From IMG/VR virus record IMGVR_UViG_3300033146_006366, positions 1-25,331 of that record: 25,331 nt of DNA. One strand, written 5' to 3'. The stretch's first letter is position 1. Each line of letters begins with the position of its first letter. This document shows, one piece after another, positions 1,808 through 25,331 of this stretch. Origin of the DNA: a virus. The position numbers and the translations under genes were made by a program. The notes beneath the pieces were generated by a model that was given only the letters and a program-made list of their open reading frames with translations, made no database searches and was not told the DNA's origin.

Positions 1808-3241
1808 TTACCCAAATATGTCATCAAATGAATTTATTTCAGTTTTAACGTTATCATAACCTAATATATTCCACCACCTATCTGCTAATTGAATACAAGT
1901 CTTATTCCATAATGCGTCATAGTCAATTTCAAATATTTTATTGAATTCTTCAGGCCATTTATCTAAAAAGCCGACTGAAGTAAATTTATACTTATTATTT
2001 GGCTTTACTGCAATAAAACACATTAAATCACCATTTGTAATTGCAGGTTCTTTTATTAGCTTTAGTTCTTTTATTAAAAAATTATAATTTACTGCAGCTT
2101 TATTTCTTGCTGGAGATTTAAAAGCATATTGAATTGTACCATTTTTTAGTTTTAATGGAACAGAATATTTATCGTATGAAGATATTGAACCTCTTACTGC
2201 TATTTCTTCAATTGCTTGTTTTTCAAATTCTTTTCTTTTTTCTCTCATAAATTCATTTAATTCTTTTTTAGATTTTTTATCCAAAATCATTCTTAAAGCT
2301 TTTTCTAATACAGTTCTAATAAAAAATGGTTTATCTCGTTTCTTTACTTCAATGCCAATATTTTTAAATTTTAAATTATCAGAATAATCAATACCTTCAT
2401 CATCAACAATATAGCTTGCGTAATGTTTACGACCAGTAACGAACATACTTTCAATTATTTTTTCAGGTTTAAAATTAATACTTCTTCCTGAATTATAATA
2501 GCTGTCATATAAATCAGTACTTTTATCAATTAAAGGTATTATTACTTTTTTATTAAAATCAAGAGCCCAATCTCGATATTCAGCTGAATTTTTAAAATTT
2601 AAATTAAGTACTTTAACAACTTCTTCTAATGAAATATAATTTGAATCTGTATCTATTAATCTAACAACATCTTTTTTAATTTTATTATTTTCATTTATAT
2701 CATCAAAATAATCTTTATTTTTATAAAATTCGTTTTTAAAATAATCATTAAACATTCTGCTCATAAATTTTATTAAATGCTGACCTGTTAAAGTAATACA
2801 TCTTGCGTTATCAATATTAAATAAATGAAAATACCTATTTCCAAGCGCTCCATATAATGAGTTTATTCTGATTTTCCAACGATGCTGACTTCGGTCATAA
2901 AAATCAGAACTCATATTTCCTTCTTTATCAATATCAGAACAATATTTATCAAAGTCTTCTTCAGATAATTTTGTTTTCTTTAATAATTCTGATTTTTCTG
3001 TAATACCTTGCTCTTTCCAATATTGAATTGATTTTTTAGCTTTTTCTTCTAATCTTTTATTAAAACCAAACTCAACTATTTTTGAAATAATTGACTGCTT
3101 ATCTTTTTTATAATAAATATTTCCAATTGTCATTTCCCCACTACTAATTGGCCATTTTTTTACTTTTGATAATGGAGTTTCTTGTAAGTCTTCAATCGGC
3201 CTATAAATTGTTTCAATTTTTGATATTACGATTTCTTTCAT
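1808..3241 (-). CDS. gp43 (C-terminal part): Family B DNA polymerase, C-terminal (polymerase) part of a split gp43
   Basis: A 477-residue protein matching the C-terminal half of T4 gp43. Residues 127-135 (NSLYGALGN) are motif B and DTDS at 197-200 is motif C with catalytic aspartates. The last residues, SFDDIFG, resemble the T4 gp43 C-terminus SLDFLFG that binds the sliding clamp. The N-terminal 120 residues correspond to the T4 fingers region between motifs A and B. The exonuclease domain and motif A (D..SLYPS) are absent, so a partner polypeptide must supply one catalytic aspartate. The ORF has its own ATG and an AAAGGT ribosome binding site and is not preceded by polymerase sequence, so it is a genuine separate gene rather than a local frameshift. 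Split gp43 genes (43A/43B) are known in some Aeromonas T4-like phages. The N-terminal half is not in this window. Confidence 0.9.
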   Translation of the reverse strand: MKEIVISKIETIYRPIEDLQETPLSKVKKWPISSGEMTIGNIYYKKDKQSIISKIVEFGFNKRLEEKAKKSIQYWKEQGITEKSELLKKTKLSEEDFDKYCSDIDKEGNMSSDFYDRSQHRWKIRINSLYGALGNRYFHLFNIDNARCITLTGQHLIKFMSRMFNDYFKNEFYKNKDYFDDINENNKIKKDVVRLIDTDSNYISLEEVVKVLNLNFKNSAEYRDWALDFNKKVIIPLIDKSTDLYDSYYNSGRSINFKPEKIIESMFVTGRKHYASYIVDDEGIDYSDNLKFKNIGIEVKKRDKPFFIRTVLEKALRMILDKKSKKELNEFMREKRKEFEKQAIEEIAVRGSISSYDKYSVPLKLKNGTIQYAFKSPARNKAAVNYNFLIKELKLIKEPAITNGDLMCFIAVKPNNKYKFTSVGFLDKWPEEFNKIFEIDYDALWNKTCIQLADRWWNILGYDNVKTEINSFDDIFG

Positions 3242-4836: not shown

Positions 4837-5751
4837 ATGTCAATTTACAAAAATGATAATTCTTTATATAATAAATTAATAACTGCGTTAAAAGCAATTT
4901 CATTAAACGTCTCGTATCAAGATAAAGACGGCACTTGGCACGAGATGGATGAAATTACTGACGATAATAAAGATGACGGCAAACCTAAAAATTTATTTAA
5001 AAAAATATATAACCCAGATAAAATTGCTGAAGCAACTAATATTCAATTGTCTCTTACTTCAGATAACCCAACTTCAAAAGCTAAGTTAAAAGAAAATATG
5101 GAGAAGACTGAGTTTGAAGATTCTGTTCCCCATAAATTTCAGTCCGAATATGACTCTGCAAAAACAGTAGGGATGTGGGCGATCGTAAAAGCAATTGCAA
5201 AAGAAGTAGTTGATTTTTTAATTGAAAATACAGTCGTTGCAATTGAAAAAAGATTTAATGATTTAGATACTGATTTTAATAATATTGTTGATTATATACA
5301 ATCTTCAATTGCGTATTATGACAATCATAAAAATGATGTAGTCGACTCAACTCCTTTTACAGCGGTTGAAACTGCAGTAGACGCAAGCAATTCAAATGAA
5401 ATTGAAGAACTTGATATAATACAAATTCCAGGCTTGCCATCTGCTGTACCTTCAAATGAACAAATCACAAATAAATTAAATGAAGTGATACAAATATTAA
5501 ACAATAATAAAATCGCAAATACTTCAAATACTTTAACGGCAATAAATACAGCAGTTCAAAGTATTGAAGAAGACTTAAATACAAATAAACAAAGGCATTA
5601 TATTGATATGAAAGGTTTTACTGAAAATATTTCAACTTTAGCACAAAATACAACTCACGGAGCAAGAAAATCAAAATCTGCTGCAACAATTGAAAGTGAA
5701 GAAAAATTGGCTGATAATAATGGTAATAAAGTTAAAATATCAATTAAGTAA
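4837..5751 (+). CDS. Hypothetical helical protein, probably late
   Basis: A 304-residue protein I do not recognise. It has a hydrophilic N-terminal part, a helical stretch near residues 105-160 (WAIVKAIAKEVVDFLIENTVVAIEKRF), a Pro-containing linker around IPGLPSAVPS, and a C-terminal helical part with coiled-coil character (residues about 210-270, many Asn and Ile/Leu). It follows the preceding gene after 20 bases with an AAGG ribosome binding site, so the two are almost certainly cotranscribed. Its stop is only 15 bases from the stop of the convergent gp6 gene, with no clear terminator between. Its position inside a block of structural genes suggests a virion or assembly role, but nothing in the sequence proves that. 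Confidence 0.65.
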   Translation: MSIYKNDNSLYNKLITALKAISLNVSYQDKDGTWHEMDEITDDNKDDGKPKNLFKKIYNPDKIAEATNIQLSLTSDNPTSKAKLKENMEKTEFEDSVPHKFQSEYDSAKTVGMWAIVKAIAKEVVDFLIENTVVAIEKRFNDLDTDFNNIVDYIQSSIAYYDNHKNDVVDSTPFTAVETAVDASNSNEIEELDIIQIPGLPSAVPSNEQITNKLNEVIQILNNNKIANTSNTLTAINTAVQSIEEDLNTNKQRHYIDMKGFTENISTLAQNTTHGARKSKSAATIESEEKLADNNGNKVKISIK

Positions 5752-9256: not shown

Positions 9257-10255
9257 TCACTCAATTACTTTGTTATCGAAGTTCTGAACTTCTAATTTGT
9301 TCATTGTATTATTATGGTATGCTAAAATATAATCATCAGACAATTCCCCTAATATTGCATAATCTGAAATAATAGATTGCACTTGTGTATCATCACGTTT
9401 CATTACCCCGCTTAAATATTTATAATACCCACCTGGACCGTAAGGAGCTACAACGCCCTCTGCAATAAAAAACCCATCAATATAAATTTTAAAATTATTT
9501 GTTGAAAAATCTGCTATAGTAGCGATTGAATGCGCATCAGTGTCATTTAATGTATAAAATGTATTCACAGTCGCCCCTGAGTAGTTGTTTATAATATATA
9601 TTTGTTTAGATGCATTTATTTTTATTGATACGTCTTGTGTCATATCGTAACCACTGCCATAATATCCTTTTATACTAAAACCAACAAGTTTCTTATCAGC
9701 GGACGGCGCAGCATTTAATTTAAAACAATTAATAACAGAATATTTTTTATTTCTTATATCAACGTATGTATTATTATCATACCTAAACGTTGCCCCGGTA
9801 CTTGTATTTTTTGCATTTATGTTTCCTCTATAATTTGCATCTGCTTCAGAGGCAAACCCATTATTATAAATACCTGTCATTAAACCATTTGTAATAAAAG
9901 AAGTCGTCAGTGAATTAGAGTTCGCTTTTGTAAAATCATTATATAAAAATTTTGCGCCGTCAGTCGGAACAAATGCATCCATTGATTGGCTAACAGCTGA
10001 GTTCCTTATTGCAATATAAAATGGTTTATCTGCAGAATCATCAATTGAACTAATTCTAACGTGAGCAATTAATATTTTTTGAGAAACATTGAAATATGTA
10101 ATGTATCGTTTACATTCTACTGTATATTGGTCATCTTCAAAAAATCTAATTTGGTTTGAGCTTTTGCCTTCTACATCAGCCCAAAAACTTGCAGGCAAAT
10201 TTGCGTCATCACCCCGTGCTTCATAATATAATGTAAAATTTGTTATACTTGCCAT
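9257..10255 (-). CDS. Lectin/LamG-like (concanavalin-fold) tail or baseplate-associated protein
   Basis: A 332-residue protein. The C-terminal half (residues about 150-310) has a laminin-G/concanavalin-like strand pattern, with FSIKGYYGSG..., a DAHSIATIADFSTNNFKIYIDG segment, and then GFFIAEG. That last part is the typical 'h.va...dg..v.lYvDG' edge seen in LamG domains. The N-terminal 120 residues are beta-rich with VECKRYITYFNVS and HVRISSIDDS. It is the first gene of the leftward unit with gp25 and gp6, has a GAGGAAA ribosome binding site, and starts beside the divergent late-type promoter. It may be a carbohydrate-binding appendage or a baseplate decoration protein. There is no enzyme motif; the fold assignment is by pattern only. 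Confidence 0.65.
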   Translation of the reverse strand: MASITNFTLYYEARGDDANLPASFWADVEGKSSNQIRFFEDDQYTVECKRYITYFNVSQKILIAHVRISSIDDSADKPFYIAIRNSAVSQSMDAFVPTDGAKFLYNDFTKANSNSLTTSFITNGLMTGIYNNGFASEADANYRGNINAKNTSTGATFRYDNNTYVDIRNKKYSVINCFKLNAAPSADKKLVGFSIKGYYGSGYDMTQDVSIKINASKQIYIINNYSGATVNTFYTLNDTDAHSIATIADFSTNNFKIYIDGFFIAEGVVAPYGPGGYYKYLSGVMKRDDTQVQSIISDYAILGELSDDYILAYHNNTMNKLEVQNFDNKVIE

Positions 10256-12522: not shown

Positions 12523-13110
12523 ATGAATTCGTTTAAAGGAAATGGAGTTGTAAAAAATTTTTATGACAAAGCTACTATACAAGTTAAATCTAAATTTTTA
12601 GTAACATTTACAGATGACACTACTGATAATCAAGAAAAGAAAGACTTATACGAAATAATTGGAAATATGCCAAAAATAGATCCCTGGCAAGTAAAACAAA
12701 TTGAATATCCTTATATGCCATCGATTGATGTTGTTGATTATTATTTTCAAACAATCCCAGTTGTAGATCCTTATAAGCCAAGCGCAAATACAATTTCAAT
12801 ACAATTTATCGAAAATGAGTTTAATAATGTATTGCAGTTTGGAGAGTGGTTATTTAGAAAAATATCAGGGCCAAGCGGCATATTAAGAAGTTCAAAAGCA
12901 AATTTTATAGACCAAATTGATATTTATGAAATTAATATAAAAGGTGAAATAATAAATCACGAAGTATTAACACATTGTCTTTTTACAAAAATGGACGGTA
13001 ATTCAAGGTCCAGTGACGGCGGCATTATTGAAAGAACTCTTGAATTTACTTATATTGAAAGATTACGTGAAGATAGACCGTTATCAATAACAGATCCTTC
13101 TAAAATTTGA
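12523..13110 (+). CDS. Second tail tube-fold protein
   Basis: A 195-residue protein with the same overall pattern as the preceding one: KFLVTFTDD at the N-terminus, then a lysine-rich linker, VKQIEYPYMPSIDVVDYYF, ISIQFIENEFNNVLQFGEWLF (aligning with the tube-fold ITFEENDYKELYLIFSDW), and a closing HEVLTHCLFTKMDGNSR...GGIIERTLEFTYIERL block. It begins one base after the preceding stop with AGAAGG upstream, so the two are tightly coupled. Paralogous tube-fold proteins occur in T4 (gp19, gp48, gp54). Which of the pair is the major tube cannot be decided from sequence alone, although expression level would tell. Confidence 0.7.
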   Translation: MNSFKGNGVVKNFYDKATIQVKSKFLVTFTDDTTDNQEKKDLYEIIGNMPKIDPWQVKQIEYPYMPSIDVVDYYFQTIPVVDPYKPSANTISIQFIENEFNNVLQFGEWLFRKISGPSGILRSSKANFIDQIDIYEINIKGEIINHEVLTHCLFTKMDGNSRSSDGGIIERTLEFTYIERLREDRPLSITDPSKI

Positions 13111-15740: not shown

Positions 15741-15768
15741 GTTAAATAAAAGCCTTAACAATTCCATT

Positions 15769-15936
15769 CTATACCTTAAAAGCAATTCCTAATTTTAAAG
15801 AATATATTTCAGATATTTTTTTGTTACTTTTTTGTTTTGGTTTGAATTCTTTAAAGTTATGTCCTTGACAAGTTTTTTCTCCACCATATTGATGAATATA
15901 GCCATATTTACAAGTCATTTGTTTAACATTCGCCAT
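15769..15936 (-). CDS. Small Cys/His protein, function unknown
   Basis: A 55-residue protein starting at 15936. I chose this start because GAGAGGAG lies ten bases upstream; an ATG eleven codons earlier (15969) has no such site. Within MANVKQMTCKYGYIHQYGGE and TCQGHNF there are two Cys and two His (C9, H15, C22, H25) with spacing that could bind zinc. The remainder is lysine-rich. It lies downstream of the dCMP-hydroxymethylase-like gene after an intervening hairpin. No family is recognised. Confidence 0.5.
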   Translation of the reverse strand: MANVKQMTCKYGYIHQYGGEKTCQGHNFKEFKPKQKSNKKISEIYSLKLGIAFKV

Positions 15937-15985
15937 TTTTGAATTACTCCTCTCAAAAATATATTTCATTTAATTTACAATATTT

Positions 15986-16022
15986 TAAAAAGAAATGAGG
16001 ACCAACCTACCGCTCTCATTTC
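15986..16022 (-). terminator. Rho-independent terminator downstream of the nucleotide-metabolism operon
   Basis: On the minus strand GAAATGAG (16022-16015) and CTCATTTC (15999-15992) form a perfect 8-bp stem with a 15-nt loop (AGCGGTAGGTTGGTC), and are followed by TTTTTAAAA. It lies 157 bases past the stop of the dCMP-hydroxymethylase-like gene and ends the structured region. Confidence 0.65.
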
Positions 16023-16178
16023 ACCGACCGCCTTGGATATTTATAAAATTATTATAAAAGGTCGGAACCGAATACCACGATAACGCGAATATTATCTGTA
16101 TTCACTCAAAGTCCTGTATTTAATTAAATAATACAGTTCGCTTTTAACTACAGAGCCCGTTATTATTTTACTATTCAC
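16023..16178 (-). ncRNA. Structured untranslated block, possible small RNA
   Basis: No ORF. Relative to its surroundings it has more G and C and several self-complementary segments: CCGACC (16024-16029) with GGTCGG (16060-16065) about 30 nt apart, and CTGTATT...AATACAG around 16113-16135 (7 bp, 9-nt loop). With the terminator at 15986-16022 they give a 3' hairpin series on the minus strand. I tried to fold it as a tRNA and could not: no T-arm GTTCRANNC with matching stem and no D-loop GG. It could be a processed 3' UTR, a small RNA, or just a structured spacer. Strand is inferred from the terminator and flanking genes. Confidence 0.35.
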
Positions 16179-16850
16179 TTAAAGTAAATCATCTAAATAT
16201 TTAAAATGCCTTTCATAAATATGAATACTTCCAGCATTCCAAATCAAATCACCCAATTTAAGTTTTGGGTATTTTTCAATTAAATCGTAATATAATTTTT
16301 TATGAACATATTGTGCCCAATAAAAATCATTATTATATCCAAATACAGCATCATTACTTCTAATATTATAAACAGAAATTAAAGAGTCATTTCTAATAAA
16401 AAATTGGTTAGACGTGGTACAAATAAAATCTGACATCCCATCTTTATTATAATCAATATGCATTGAAGGTCTTTGATAAATCATTAAAGCTCTACGGCTA
16501 AATTTATTATTAATTAGTTCATTTTTAACATTTTCATATTGATTATAATTTTCATCACTAAATATTAAATAACCATAATTTGAATTTATTTTGCCGTTTT
16601 TATCTGCGACTTGTTTCCATATCAAAGGAGTTTTTCCAGGTATGTCTTCAACAAACAAAGATTGTGACTCATACCAACTTAATTCCCTTTTTACATAATC
16701 TAAATTTGGTTTTCTAATAATATGATCTGTATCGGCAATAAAAGTTGCTGCAATTAATTCAATCAATTTTGCTCCGGTTTTATCAATTACAAAATCTTTA
16801 TTTTTGTATTGTTCAACAAAAGCATTTTTAATATCTTGAGTATTATACAT
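16179..16850 (-). CDS. Thymidylate-synthase-family enzyme, probable dCMP hydroxymethylase
   Basis: A 223-residue protein of the thymidylate synthase fold (T4 dCMP hydroxymethylase is 246). Recognisable residues, by alignment to E. coli thymidylate synthase: E56 (catalytic Glu), R119-R120 (phosphate-binding pair), C144 (nucleophile, FICTTSNQF) with Q149, R164-S165-x-D167, G171, and H210-x-Y212 (SIHIYERHF). The residue that reads Asn177 in thymidylate synthase is D175 here (VFGYNNDF). In T4 dCMP hydroxymethylase this position is Asp and selects cytosine over uracil. The expected reaction is conversion of dCMP plus methylene-tetrahydrofolate to 5-hydroxymethyl-dCMP. It starts seven bases after the dNTP pyrophosphatase-like gene, with its ribosome binding site inside that gene's end, so the two are coupled. 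Alternative: a dUMP-using relative. Confidence 0.8.
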   Translation of the reverse strand: MYNTQDIKNAFVEQYKNKDFVIDKTGAKLIELIAATFIADTDHIIRKPNLDYVKRELSWYESQSLFVEDIPGKTPLIWKQVADKNGKINSNYGYLIFSDENYNQYENVKNELINNKFSRRALMIYQRPSMHIDYNKDGMSDFICTTSNQFFIRNDSLISVYNIRSNDAVFGYNNDFYWAQYVHKKLYYDLIEKYPKLKLGDLIWNAGSIHIYERHFKYLDDLL

Positions 16851-16857
16851 TTTTATA

Positions 16858-17337
16858 CTACTTTCCTTTTTTTACTTCTGCGATTATATCATCAAATTCA
16901 GGAGCTTTCCAACCTTTAGGTTTAACACAATCAAAAGTCGTGCCTCTTTTTGTTTCTGTTGTTGCTCTGACTTTTTGCATATTTGCGGCTTGAATTCTAT
17001 CCCAAGCTTCTTCGGCTAATGTTTTGCCATTTTTCAATTCTTTACTAAAACCATACAAATCAATTGTACCCATTATAACATATGTAAGATCTAATAGCCC
17101 GTCAATGAATTCAGGCTCACTTATATCTGCAGCAATACCTGTTTCTACTTTGCCATTATTAAAGCTGAATCCAGCTGCTTTAACGGTCTCAGTAAATTCT
17201 TCTAACAAAAAATTTAATCTCATTTCAAGATTCTTTTTTTGTTCATCAGATAAATTATGTAAATCTGGTTTTTTCATACTTTCACCTGGAAAATATTTGT
17301 TTTGAAATTTCATTACATCTGTTAAAGTCTTTAACAT
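16858..17337 (-). CDS. All-alpha NTP pyrophosphatase (MazG / PRA-PH-like)
   Basis: A 159-residue, mostly helical protein with the two metal-binding motifs of the all-alpha NTP-pyrophosphatase superfamily: E46-E47-x-x-E50 (FLLEEFTET) and D79-x-x-x-D83 (DGLLDLTYV). The C-terminal part (AANMQKVR, then the C-x-KPKGW segment) is typical of phage members. Such enzymes hydrolyse dNTPs to dNMP plus pyrophosphate. Because it is the first gene of a pair with the dCMP-hydroxymethylase-like enzyme, removal of dCTP and supply of dCMP (as T4 gp56 does) is a sensible proposal, but the substrate is not shown by the sequence. The start at 17337 has AAAGGAGG upstream. Confidence 0.8.
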   Translation of the reverse strand: MLKTLTDVMKFQNKYFPGESMKKPDLHNLSDEQKKNLEMRLNFLLEEFTETVKAAGFSFNNGKVETGIAADISEPEFIDGLLDLTYVIMGTIDLYGFSKELKNGKTLAEEAWDRIQAANMQKVRATTETKRGTTFDCVKPKGWKAPEFDDIIAEVKKGK

Positions 17338-17390
17338 ACTGCATCCTCCTTTATATAATAATTTTTAAACATTTTCTTTTTTATTTTCAT

Positions 17391-17500: not shown

Positions 17501-18571
17501 ATGGGACAACACTTAGAATATAATTCAAATAAAAAAGTAGATCTTCAAAGATTATTACCAGAGCAAATTACTGAATCTGATTTTAGTCGTTTGATAAAAG
17601 TTTATGAAGACACAATTAATAATCTTTATAAAGCTGATAAATCAGGTAATGAAATAGCTAATTATTTGAATGTCACTGAAGTTTCTGCATTTGAAGAAAT
17701 TAATATTGAAAGAGATATTCAAAATACAGAATCAAATTTGGTTCAAAAATGGAGAAATGTTCCTAAAAGAGATTACGCTGATCAAGATATACAAAATGTT
17801 AGTAAGAATGAAAGTTTTGATTATATTAAATCACATATTACTTCAGGTTCAAGACTTTTTGTACAATACCCGATTAAAGCAGAAAATAATGAAGGTATTT
17901 CATTATTAGAAAAAATATACAGAATTGCTGATAGTCACGATGCTTGGCTAGCTCCATTTGATTTTATACAAAAACAAGCTGAGTTTGTTGGTTACGATAT
18001 TAATAATAGTTTAGCAAATATTGAAAAGAATACTGATTATGAAACAGAACAACAAACAAGATTTATGATTGATAATTTAGCACATTGGTACAAAATAAAA
18101 ACAACTGAAGACTCAATTAAATTATTATTATTTACGTTTGGTTTGTTTGGCGGTTTATTAAATTATTATACTGAAGATTATGGAGTGGATAGAAAAAAGT
18201 GGCAATCTTCACAAAATTATTATGATGAAAAATTAAAATATAATGCAAGTGATTTATCTGAAATACCAGATAATTATTTTTCAACTCCTCATTTTGCAAT
18301 TTGGTATGATTTAGGTAAATCTGGAGGAGCTTCATTAAATAAAGAAAAAGATAGAAAAGCAATTGTAAATGCAGTAAACTCTATTAAACCAATAAATAAA
18401 GTTTTCAGTGGAATTATCACAATATTTTCAGCTGATGCTTCAGAAATTCGTGTGCATACATCAGAGCATTCATTATGGAGACGAAATTCAAAATCCTTGC
18501 TAAGAGGCACAATAAATACAGATAAAGAAACCGGATATTTTGCTTCTATTGATAGTGGAGTAATTTTATGA
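17501..18571 (+). CDS. Baseplate wedge protein, gpI/gp7-like
   Basis: A 356-residue protein with the pattern of tail protein I-type (P2 gpI) wedge proteins: a helical N-terminal half, the FIQKQAEFVGYDIN segment, RFMIDNLAHWYKIKTTEDSIKLLLFTFG, and a C-terminal FSTPHFAIWYDL strand followed by AIVNAVNSIKPINKVFSGI ('hfaI.id....i...i...kPin.vf'). In contractile tails this component clamps the gp6-like wedge and carries the fibres. Assignment to the gpI/gp7 class is by pattern; I cannot choose between the T4 numbers. It is the first gene of the fibre operon, so the link to fibre attachment fits. The ribosome binding site is AAAGG five bases before the ATG. Confidence 0.7.
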   Translation: MGQHLEYNSNKKVDLQRLLPEQITESDFSRLIKVYEDTINNLYKADKSGNEIANYLNVTEVSAFEEINIERDIQNTESNLVQKWRNVPKRDYADQDIQNVSKNESFDYIKSHITSGSRLFVQYPIKAENNEGISLLEKIYRIADSHDAWLAPFDFIQKQAEFVGYDINNSLANIEKNTDYETEQQTRFMIDNLAHWYKIKTTEDSIKLLLFTFGLFGGLLNYYTEDYGVDRKKWQSSQNYYDEKLKYNASDLSEIPDNYFSTPHFAIWYDLGKSGGASLNKEKDRKAIVNAVNSIKPINKVFSGIITIFSADASEIRVHTSEHSLWRRNSKSLLRGTINTDKETGYFASIDSGVIL

Positions 18572-23752: not shown

Positions 23753-24109
23753 ATGGCTACAGAAATTACAGAAGAAGTATTACCAGCGGGTATCAAAGCA
23801 TTACAAGTATTGCAGTTTAATTTTCCACAATGGAACAATACAGATGCTGCAGTAAGAAAAGGTACTTTCACATTGAAGATGAGGAGCGGGATTCTTCAAA
23901 ATGATGGTGGGAGTAGAGAAGATTTAAACCCTATTAAATTATTAAGTGAATCTCAAACTAAATTATTATTAGAGGATACTGTTACTTTAGCAAGCGGTAA
24001 AGAAATTACGGGTGCAGAAATAGCAGAAGGTCTTGGTATTGCAATTGATAAAGCTTGGGCCGGGGATTACGATGTTGTAGACGAAGAGCCTGAAGAACCT
24101 GAAGTATAA
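23753..24109 (+). CDS. Small acidic protein of unknown function
   Basis: A 118-residue protein with no recognised family. The N-terminal part is mixed (LPAGIKALQVLQFNFPQW), the middle helical, and the C-terminus very acidic (DEEPEEPEV). The ribosome binding site AAAAAGGAGA stands 11 bases before the ATG. It is the last gene of the fibre operon and is followed by the strong terminator at 24147-24196. Small proteins after fibre genes are often fibre-assembly chaperones or baseplate accessories, but nothing here proves either. Confidence 0.6.
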   Translation: MATEITEEVLPAGIKALQVLQFNFPQWNNTDAAVRKGTFTLKMRSGILQNDGGSREDLNPIKLLSESQTKLLLEDTVTLASGKEITGAEIAEGLGIAIDKAWAGDYDVVDEEPEEPEV

Positions 24110-24241: not shown

Positions 24242-25030
24242 CTACTTAATAACTTTTACTTCATACCCAAGCAAATCTGAAATTTCTTCAACGCTAAGCT
24301 CCTTTGCTTCCGGTTTTAAATCATCATTAATATAATAAACTGCATCAAGATTATTATCAGCTGCAGTTTTACATATTTCTTCAGTTTGATTTTCTACGTA
24401 TTGCAAAGCAAGACCGTTTTGTTTAACTGCAGTTTTACATATTTCTTCAGTTTGATTTTCCACGTATTGCAAATTATAACCATTTTGTTTGACTGCAATT
24501 TTACATATTTCTTCAGTCTGGTTTTTCACGTATTGCAAATTATAACCGTCTTGTTTGACTGCAATTTTACATATTTCTTCAGTCTGGTTTACCATAAGCT
24601 GTAAAGCAAGACCATTTTCTTTGACTGCGATTTTACAAATTTCTTCAGTTTGATTTTTCACGTATTGCAAATTATAACCATTTTGTTTGACTGCAATTTT
24701 ACATATTTCTTCAGTCTGATTTTTTACAAACTGTAAAGCATAACCATTTTCTTTGACTGCTTCAATACATATTTCCTCGGTTTGGTTTTTTACAAACTGT
24801 AAAGAGTGACTGTTTTGTTTTACTGCTTCAATACAAATTTCTTCAGTCTGATTTTTTACGTATCGCAAATTAGAACTGTCTTTTTTGACCGCTTCAATAC
24901 AAATTTCTTTAGTCTGGTTTTTTACATATTGCAAGTTAAAACCATTTTCTTTTACTGCTGCTAAAGATTCTTCTTCAGTGAAATATTTATAACTTTTATT
25001 CTTTAATTTGATAAGATCTCTGATTTCCAT
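24242..25030 (-). CDS. DUF4116-like repeat protein (nine 22-residue repeats)
   Basis: A 262-residue protein. Residues 26-223 are nine tandem repeats of 22 residues, each beginning VK(E/Q), with LQYV or LQFV in the middle and ending NQTEEIC plus four residues. The spacing and the 'A.k.nG..Lq.v....' pattern resemble the DUF4116 family found in phages, giant viruses and bacteria, of unknown function; helical-repeat folding is expected. A 25-residue N-terminal cap and a 39-residue C-terminal tail (DAVYYINDDLKPEAKELS...) flank the repeats. The tail recurs at the end of the upstream neighbour, so the two are paralogues in tandem. AAAGGAG precedes the ATG. Confidence 0.75.
   Translation of the reverse strand: MEIRDLIKLKNKSYKYFTEEESLAAVKENGFNLQYVKNQTKEICIEAVKKDSSNLRYVKNQTEEICIEAVKQNSHSLQFVKNQTEEICIEAVKENGYALQFVKNQTEEICKIAVKQNGYNLQYVKNQTEEICKIAVKENGLALQLMVNQTEEICKIAVKQDGYNLQYVKNQTEEICKIAVKQNGYNLQYVENQTEEICKTAVKQNGLALQYVENQTEEICKTAADNNLDAVYYINDDLKPEAKELSVEEISDLLGYEVKVIK
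24362..24955 (-). repeat. Nine 66-bp coding repeats
   Basis: Period 66 bp, equal to 22 codons, with similarity high at the DNA level as well (the complement of ATTTCTTCAGTCTGGTTTT recurs with few changes). The units are not separated by unique spacers, so this is a coding repeat and not a CRISPR array. Confidence 0.85.
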
Positions 25031-25049
25031 TTTTTAAAACTCCTTTGTT

Positions 25050-25331
25050 TTATTTTATAATTTTTACTTCACACCCAAGTAAATCTGAAATTTCTTCAAT
25101 ACTAAGTTCCTTTGCTTCCGGTTTTAAATCATCATTAATATAATAAACTGCATCAGGGTCTTGACCAGCTGCGGCTAAACAAATTTCTTCAGTTTGATTT
25201 TCCACGTATTGCAAAGCAAGGCCGTTTTGTTTAACTGCAGTTTTACATATTTCTTCAGTCTGATTTTCCACGAACTGTAAAGCAAGACCATTTTCTTTGA
25301 CTGCGATTTTACAAATTTCTTCAGTTTGATT
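25050..25331 (-). CDS. Second DUF4116-like repeat protein, cut by the window edge
   Basis: The frame is open to the right edge. The 93 visible residues are the C-terminal end: the NQTEEICKIA end of one repeat, two full 22-residue repeats (VKENGLALQFV... and VKQNGLALQYV...), then the variant A-G-Q-D-P-D-A-V-Y-Y-I-N-D-D tail ending EEISDLLGCEVKIIK. The tail is nearly that of the downstream paralogue. An internal GTG at 25271 is inside a repeat and is not a convincing start. The gene ends 19 bases before the start of the other copy, so they are probably cotranscribed. Confidence 0.75.
   Translation of the reverse strand, partial: NQTEEICKIAVKENGLALQFVENQTEEICKTAVKQNGLALQYVENQTEEICLAAAGQDPDAVYYINDDLKPEAKELSIEEISDLLGCEVKIIK

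Follow-up and report, generated by a model that had tools for sequence, protein, structure and literature searches.

In a 25,331 bp virus record, IMGVR_UViG_3300033146_006366, a gene for a nucleotide pyrophosphatase is closely followed by a gene for a protein with the thymidylate synthase (TS) fold, which raises the question of whether the two genes belong to a pathway for the modification of cytosine in phage DNA, as proposed in an earlier note made from the sequence. Phages are known to protect their DNA by hydroxymethylation of cytosine. The whole record, here referred to as the window, has a G+C content of 28% and comes without a completeness estimate.

The gene pair and its surroundings

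The window contained T4-type genes for a contractile tail, including the baseplate wedge (phrog_219, phrog_261) and the tail sheath stabilizer (phrog_227), as well as T4-type genes for the tail tube (phrog_45) and a head-tail adaptor (phrog_211). It is a fragment of the genome of an uncultured T4-like phage of a divergent lineage. The gene pair, at positions 17337-16858 and then 16850-16179, was located on the minus strand amid neck and tail genes on the plus strand. The features of the locus were as follows:

16179..16850, minus strand: dCMP 5-hydroxymethylase of the T4 gp42 family, 223 aa, with E56, S90, Y92, R119/R120, D141, C144, R164, S165, D167, D175, H210 and Y212
16858..17337, minus strand: DR2231-like nucleotide pyrophosphohydrolase (PRA-PH/MazG superfamily), 159 aa, with E46, E47, E50, D79 and D83; proposed dCTP(/dUTP) pyrophosphatase
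16851..16866, minus strand: gene junction, with GGAAAG at 16861-16866 inside the 3' end of the pyrophosphatase gene, the stop codon at 16858-16860, and 7 nt to the hydroxymethylase ATG
17345..17349, minus strand: GGAGG, ribosome-binding-site-like, 7 nt ahead of the pyrophosphatase start
15741..16178, no strand: gap of 438 bp, where locus L099 of a relative has six further genes
15769-15969, minus strand: ORF of 66 aa, the only one in the 438-bp gap

The two ORFs thus had the arrangement described in the earlier note, which had called the genes coupled, and the sequence of the junction suggests that their translation is likely coupled as well. Promoter-like sites in the window were fewer than in shuffled sequence, and three terminator-like sites were identified.

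Family and specificity of the hydroxymethylase

In phmmer searches against solved structures, the TS-fold protein matched T4 dCMP hydroxymethylase over residues 15-220 with 250 bits (E = 1.6e-73), compared with 35.5 bits (E 6.7e-8) for the best thymidylate synthase, an E-value of 1.6e-7 for the CMP hydroxymethylase MilA, and 22.6-22.7 bits for the RB69-type chains 9iqc and 9iqu. The AlphaFold model (pLDDT 95.5) had PDB entry 1b49, the T4 enzyme, as its top match, with a TM score of 0.96 and an rmsd of 1.2 A over 222 columns at 51% sequence identity, and MilA and the thymidylate synthases were far behind. In a careful tree of 37 hand-picked rows, the window protein and other gp42-type proteins, 25 rows in total, were separated by a branch with support values of 96/95 from the RB69, SPO1, Microbacterium and thymidylate synthase rows. 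A larger, quick tree of 85 rows, in which identical proteins were entered once, recovered a gp42 clade of 74 rows with a support of 89. The profile search with a tree and the structure prediction that the earlier note had suggested thus gave the same placement, and a grouping with dUMP-using enzymes, which it had named as evidence to the contrary, was not found, since profile, fold and tree all placed the protein with the T4 enzyme. Taken together, they provide strong evidence that the gene at 16179-16850 on the minus strand encodes a dCMP hydroxymethylase of the T4 gp42 family.

Relatives of the protein were encoded by 1010 phage records, all of them less than 60% identical to it, and in 970 of these at least 80% of the query was covered at one place; more distantly related proteins are counted among them as well, for example from 193 Microbacterium phage records. 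A scan of bacterial genomes identified gp42 relatives on 7 metagenome-assembled contigs. The window enzyme resembles T4 gp42 (PDB 1b49, 6a9a) in fold and in all active-site and signature residues, and it stops before the C-terminal tail of thymidylate synthases, which is likewise described as absent from the T4 enzyme. It differs in being 23 residues shorter and in its genomic location, since the window gene lies amid structural genes on the opposite strand, whereas the T4 gene is part of the replication cluster.

All of the residues listed in the earlier note (E56, R119, R120, C144, Q149, R164, D167, D175, H210 and Y212) were present at the numbers given there, although Q149 is no constant of the family, with Q in 46 of the 74 gp42-clade rows. 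D175 falls in the column of Asn177 of E. coli thymidylate synthase. The column contained D in 74 of 74 distinct gp42-clade proteins, and D175 was not part of the search patterns that gathered the gp42 loci. It contained N in SPO1 dUMP hydroxymethylase and in all seven full-length thymidylate synthases from phage records that also carried gp42. The T4 equivalent is Asp, as noted earlier: the alignment paired D175 with T4 D179, and the D179N mutant chain 6l18 differed exactly there. The hydroxymethylation signature described for the T4 enzyme, Ser94, Tyr96 and Asp145 (PMC6400193), corresponds to S90, Y92 and D141 in the window protein, with D141 located three residues before the catalytic C144. 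S90 and D141 were each present in 74 of 74 gp42-clade rows, but these counts are biased because the locus search patterns contained both residues. The window protein also has S165 and R119, the residues for deoxyribose selectivity, where MilA is described to have Ala and Lys in place of the Ser and Arg of deoxyribose enzymes (PMC5175136).

Asp175 alone points to cytosine but is no proof of hydroxymethylation, because RB69 ORF048c, represented by a single row with a long branch, also has Asp in this column. ORF048c is near-identical to PDB 9iqc, titled riboflavin-dependent monooxygenase with dCMP, and the TS-superfamily enzyme of RB69-like phages has been described as a 5-hydroxy-dCMP synthase (PMC13390438). 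The argument in the earlier note that Asp selects cytosine therefore held as an indication of the base, but was insufficient for the product. S90, D141, E56, Y212 and D167 correspond to T, E, F, F and N in RB69, as judged from this one row on a long branch, so that E56, D167 and Y212 are lost in RB69 and retained in the window protein. As far as the aligned residues indicate, it is S90, Y92 and D141 together with E56 and Y212 that set hydroxymethylation apart, and these group the window protein with T4.

Three other activities were set aside on residues, scores and trees. The generic label of the fold in Pfam, PHROGs and NCBIfam is thymidylate synthase, but a thymidylate synthase or dUMP hydroxymethylase acting on dUMP is highly improbable given the Asp at the Asn177 position, the difference in bit scores, both trees and the missing tail. 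Moreover, the column of D141 contained L in 7 of 7 phage thymidylate synthases, and a separate full-length thymidylate synthase was found in 7 of the 12 gp42 records searched. An RB69-kind, flavin-dependent 5-hydroxy-dCMP synthase, which would place oxygen directly on C5, would share the TS fold, a similar length and the Asp at the D175 column, and RB69-type DNA is described as using 5-hydroxycytosine (PMC13390438). We consider this reading very improbable in view of the more than tenfold lower bit scores to 9iqc and 9iqu, the 21% identity to ORF048c and its different signature residues. There is also little reason to assume a dCMP methylase that recognizes cytosine and yields 5-methyl-dCMP: an N-to-D change in thymidylate synthase gives such an enzyme (cited in PMC8670742), but the window protein contains the S/Y/D signature, lacks the tail that seals the site in thymidylate synthases and falls inside the gp42 clade.

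The pyrophosphatase and its alternation with gp56

The pyrophosphatase matched phrog_671 (E 5.7e-19) and reached 19.5 bits against PF01503, just under the cut-off of 21.3 bits, which was passed by the homologue in the nearest relative. The EExxE...DxxxD motif described previously was confirmed, and all 23 homologues in the alignment had the residues E46, E47, E50, D79 and D83. A profile built from these 23 homologues, A2, had DR2231 of Deinococcus radiodurans (PDB 2yeu, 5hva) as its best match among solved structures (E 7.7e-10). DR2231 was also the first fold match of the predicted model (pLDDT 77; E 3.1e-3, TM about 0.5), followed by a weak match to mouse dCTPase (E 0.77). DR2231 is a distant, cellular enzyme, with 19% identity in the structural alignment, and it is reported to be dUTP-specific, or exclusively active on dUTP in the title of a 2016 paper. 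Membership in the T4 gp56 family was rejected, in that no match to phrog_173 or PF08761 was obtained, whereas T4 gp56 matches both. On sequence grounds, the partner is classified as a DR2231-like MazG pyrophosphatase. Of the analogy to T4 gp56 and gp42 drawn in the earlier note, the gp42 part stood and the gp56 membership did not, while the analogy in function is kept: an NTP pyrophosphatase is expected beside a gp42 enzyme, a role common to the window protein and to the dCTPase-dUTPase gp56 (phrog_173/dUTPase_2).

Close relatives of the pyrophosphatase were not found in viral_contigs with short, near-exact peptide patterns, and homologues were identified within gp42 loci. These loci were gathered from IMG/VR with an alignment of gp42 proteins as query; of at least 600 matching stretches, 592 were confirmed and the best 80 of these were used, so that the following figure holds for the best-matching loci only. 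In 48 of the 80 loci, gp42 was preceded on its own strand by a homologue, at a distance of 305 to 8447 bp; in many of the remaining 32, there was little DNA ahead of gp42. Other genes often found near gp42 encoded a dCMP deaminase, a DUF1599-like protein, a protein similar to C5 cytosine methylases and proteins similar to glycosyltransferases. The DUF1599-like protein (nucleotide modification associated domain 1; median 116 aa), assigned from a weak Pfam match of one member, was found near gp42 in 58 of 90 clustered loci (for example L054:9480-9983). The C5 cytosine methylase-like protein, about 405 aa long and identified on one member of its family, was found downstream of gp42 in 41 of 90 (for example L023:15706-16992).

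Records matched by the gp56 family were never matched by the MazG profile. Among 46 gp42 records, 26 contained the DR2231-like enzyme, 10 a gp56-type enzyme, none both and 10 neither; these were the longer records, many of them still fragments, with shorter contigs and near-duplicates left out. The hypergeometric probability was 4.5e-5 for the 46 records and 0.024 for the 20 records with a length of at least about 60 kb, in both cases with ancestry not corrected for. Counts made with profile A2 are partly by construction, because 20 of its 23 rows come from gp42 loci, the others being the window, L099 and Microbacterium phage Quenya. In record G009, the gp56 match begins 17 bp past the end of the gp42 match, in place of the DR2231-like partner. 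The 10 records with neither enzyme, in which a PF01503 search gave only one weak extra match, include G002, G004 and G005 (158-205 kb), which carry gp42 and may have a third type of pyrophosphatase. The alternation agrees with two enzymes that can substitute for each other in the same task, and indicates that next to gp42 another pyrophosphatase commonly takes the place of T4 gp56.

From the gene neighborhood and the alternation with gp56, we infer by analogy that the partner would use dCTP. The alternation may instead reflect the removal of dUTP, because gp56 is also a dUTPase and is reported from T4-like phages that lack gene 42 (PMC2993671). A dUTPase or an enzyme for general house-cleaning, whose place before gp42 would be incidental to cytosine modification, would agree with the reported activity of DR2231 and with phage Quenya, where a similar enzyme is located beside thymidylate kinase and gp42 is absent within 6 kb. 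We nevertheless regard it as unlikely, considering the upstream position in 48 loci among the best 80 of 592, the 8-nt overlap or 7-nt gap to gp42 in the two nearest genomes, the alternation with an enzyme that is also a dCTPase and the weak structural match to mouse dCTPase. An assay of dCTP versus dUTP on DR2231-like phage enzymes would be informative for many uncultured phages.

According to the MetaGPA study (PMC8670742), PF00303 and PF01503 co-occur in phage contigs selected for modified cytosine, with Asp at position 177; both the pairing of these domains and the rule on Asp177 are thus already published for such contigs. The window has the same two domain families and the same Asp, but a carbamoyltransferase, often present in those contigs, was not recognized in it. 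For DR2231-like enzymes alternating with gp56, no description was found in the literature searched, which does not establish that there is none.

Proposed pathway and the genome site

We consider it very probable that the gene pair is a single, probably translationally coupled unit of a T4-like pathway for the replacement of cytosine. The MazG-like enzyme would convert dCTP, and probably dUTP, into the monophosphate, which would lower dCTP and supply dCMP. The gp42-type enzyme would then transfer a hydroxymethyl group from methylene-tetrahydrofolate onto C5 of dCMP, with C144 attacking C6, D175 binding the cytosine face, and D141, S90 and Y92 positioning a water molecule so that the product is hydroxymethyl rather than methyl. 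A kinase, which is not in the window, would convert hm-dCMP into hm-dCTP for the polymerase, and the phage DNA would contain 5-hydroxymethylcytosine, either bare or decorated by genes outside the fragment. Modified DNA is thus likely in this phage, which would represent one more divergent T4-like lineage among those expected to replace cytosine with hydroxymethylcytosine; such phages would be protected against many restriction enzymes and become targets of modification-dependent ones. The known scheme of cytosine modification is unchanged by the pair. Caution is called for with regard to the modified base, because Shewanella phage Thanatos has the same annotations, a gp42 enzyme and a dCTP pyrophosphatase, yet its sugar is reported to be bound directly to cytosine (PMC12838424).

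No glycosyltransferase was recognized among the window ORFs scanned, which did not include 23753-24109. This agrees with the remark in the earlier note that the window has no glucosyltransferase or other hypermodification gene, with the qualification that several predicted proteins had no match, including those at 9257-10255, 17501-18571, 12523-13110 and 4837-5751. The absence of a gene from the window says little about the phage, because the record is 25,331 bp long and has no completeness estimate. Phages with gp42 and without known glucosyltransferases have been described before (PMC2993671).

The nearest relative was record G001 (IMGVR_UViG_3300033146_007355, 23,265 bp; locus L099), which had 13 ORFs in common with the window over a 17-kb stretch; searches with a baseplate protein and with a neck protein both retrieved this single related record. 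Its pair was located at the same site, flanked by the same neck gene (68% identity) and a homologue of 17501-18571, and the pyrophosphatase and gp42 proteins were each 64% identical to those of the window, with the genes overlapping by 8 nt. Between gp42 and the neck gene, six more genes were located at L099:1252-6797 on the same strand as the pair, encoding:

a protein of 102 aa
a protein of 199 aa
a fusion of HAD and phosphoribulokinase/uridine kinase
a class II aldolase
a protein of two fused nucleotidyltransferase domains (phrog_3980)
a TAGT-like glycosyltransferase

The last protein was weakly similar to TET-associated and beta-glucosyl-HMC-alpha-glucosyl transferases. No remnants of this cassette were found in the window, including its 438-bp gap (best tblastn E 0.24). 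The two records thus have the core pair in common at this site, but not the decoration genes. The products of the cassette could give hydroxymethylcytosine a novel sugar-like decoration. As a tentative extension, which we consider possible but doubtful, the site between the neck gene and 17501 might be a base-modification slot of this lineage, with a fixed core of pyrophosphatase and hydroxymethylase and an exchangeable decoration cassette. The L099 cassette would then assemble a sugar-like group that has not been described and transfer it to hydroxymethylcytosine, while the window phage, having lost or never had the cassette, would carry bare 5-hydroxymethylcytosine.

Two other regions of the window were noted. 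The ORF at 1808-3241 on the minus strand encodes the C-terminal part of a family B DNA polymerase, with matches confined to the C-terminal half of polymerases of the T4 type; the same 477-aa form was present in locus L093, with 70% identity, and the protein is probably a split polymerase with its remaining part elsewhere. At 24242-25331, also on the minus strand, tandem DUF4116 repeats were identified, with nine stretches in 24242-25030 (E 3.9e-65), and a second DUF4116-like ORF runs off the end of the window.
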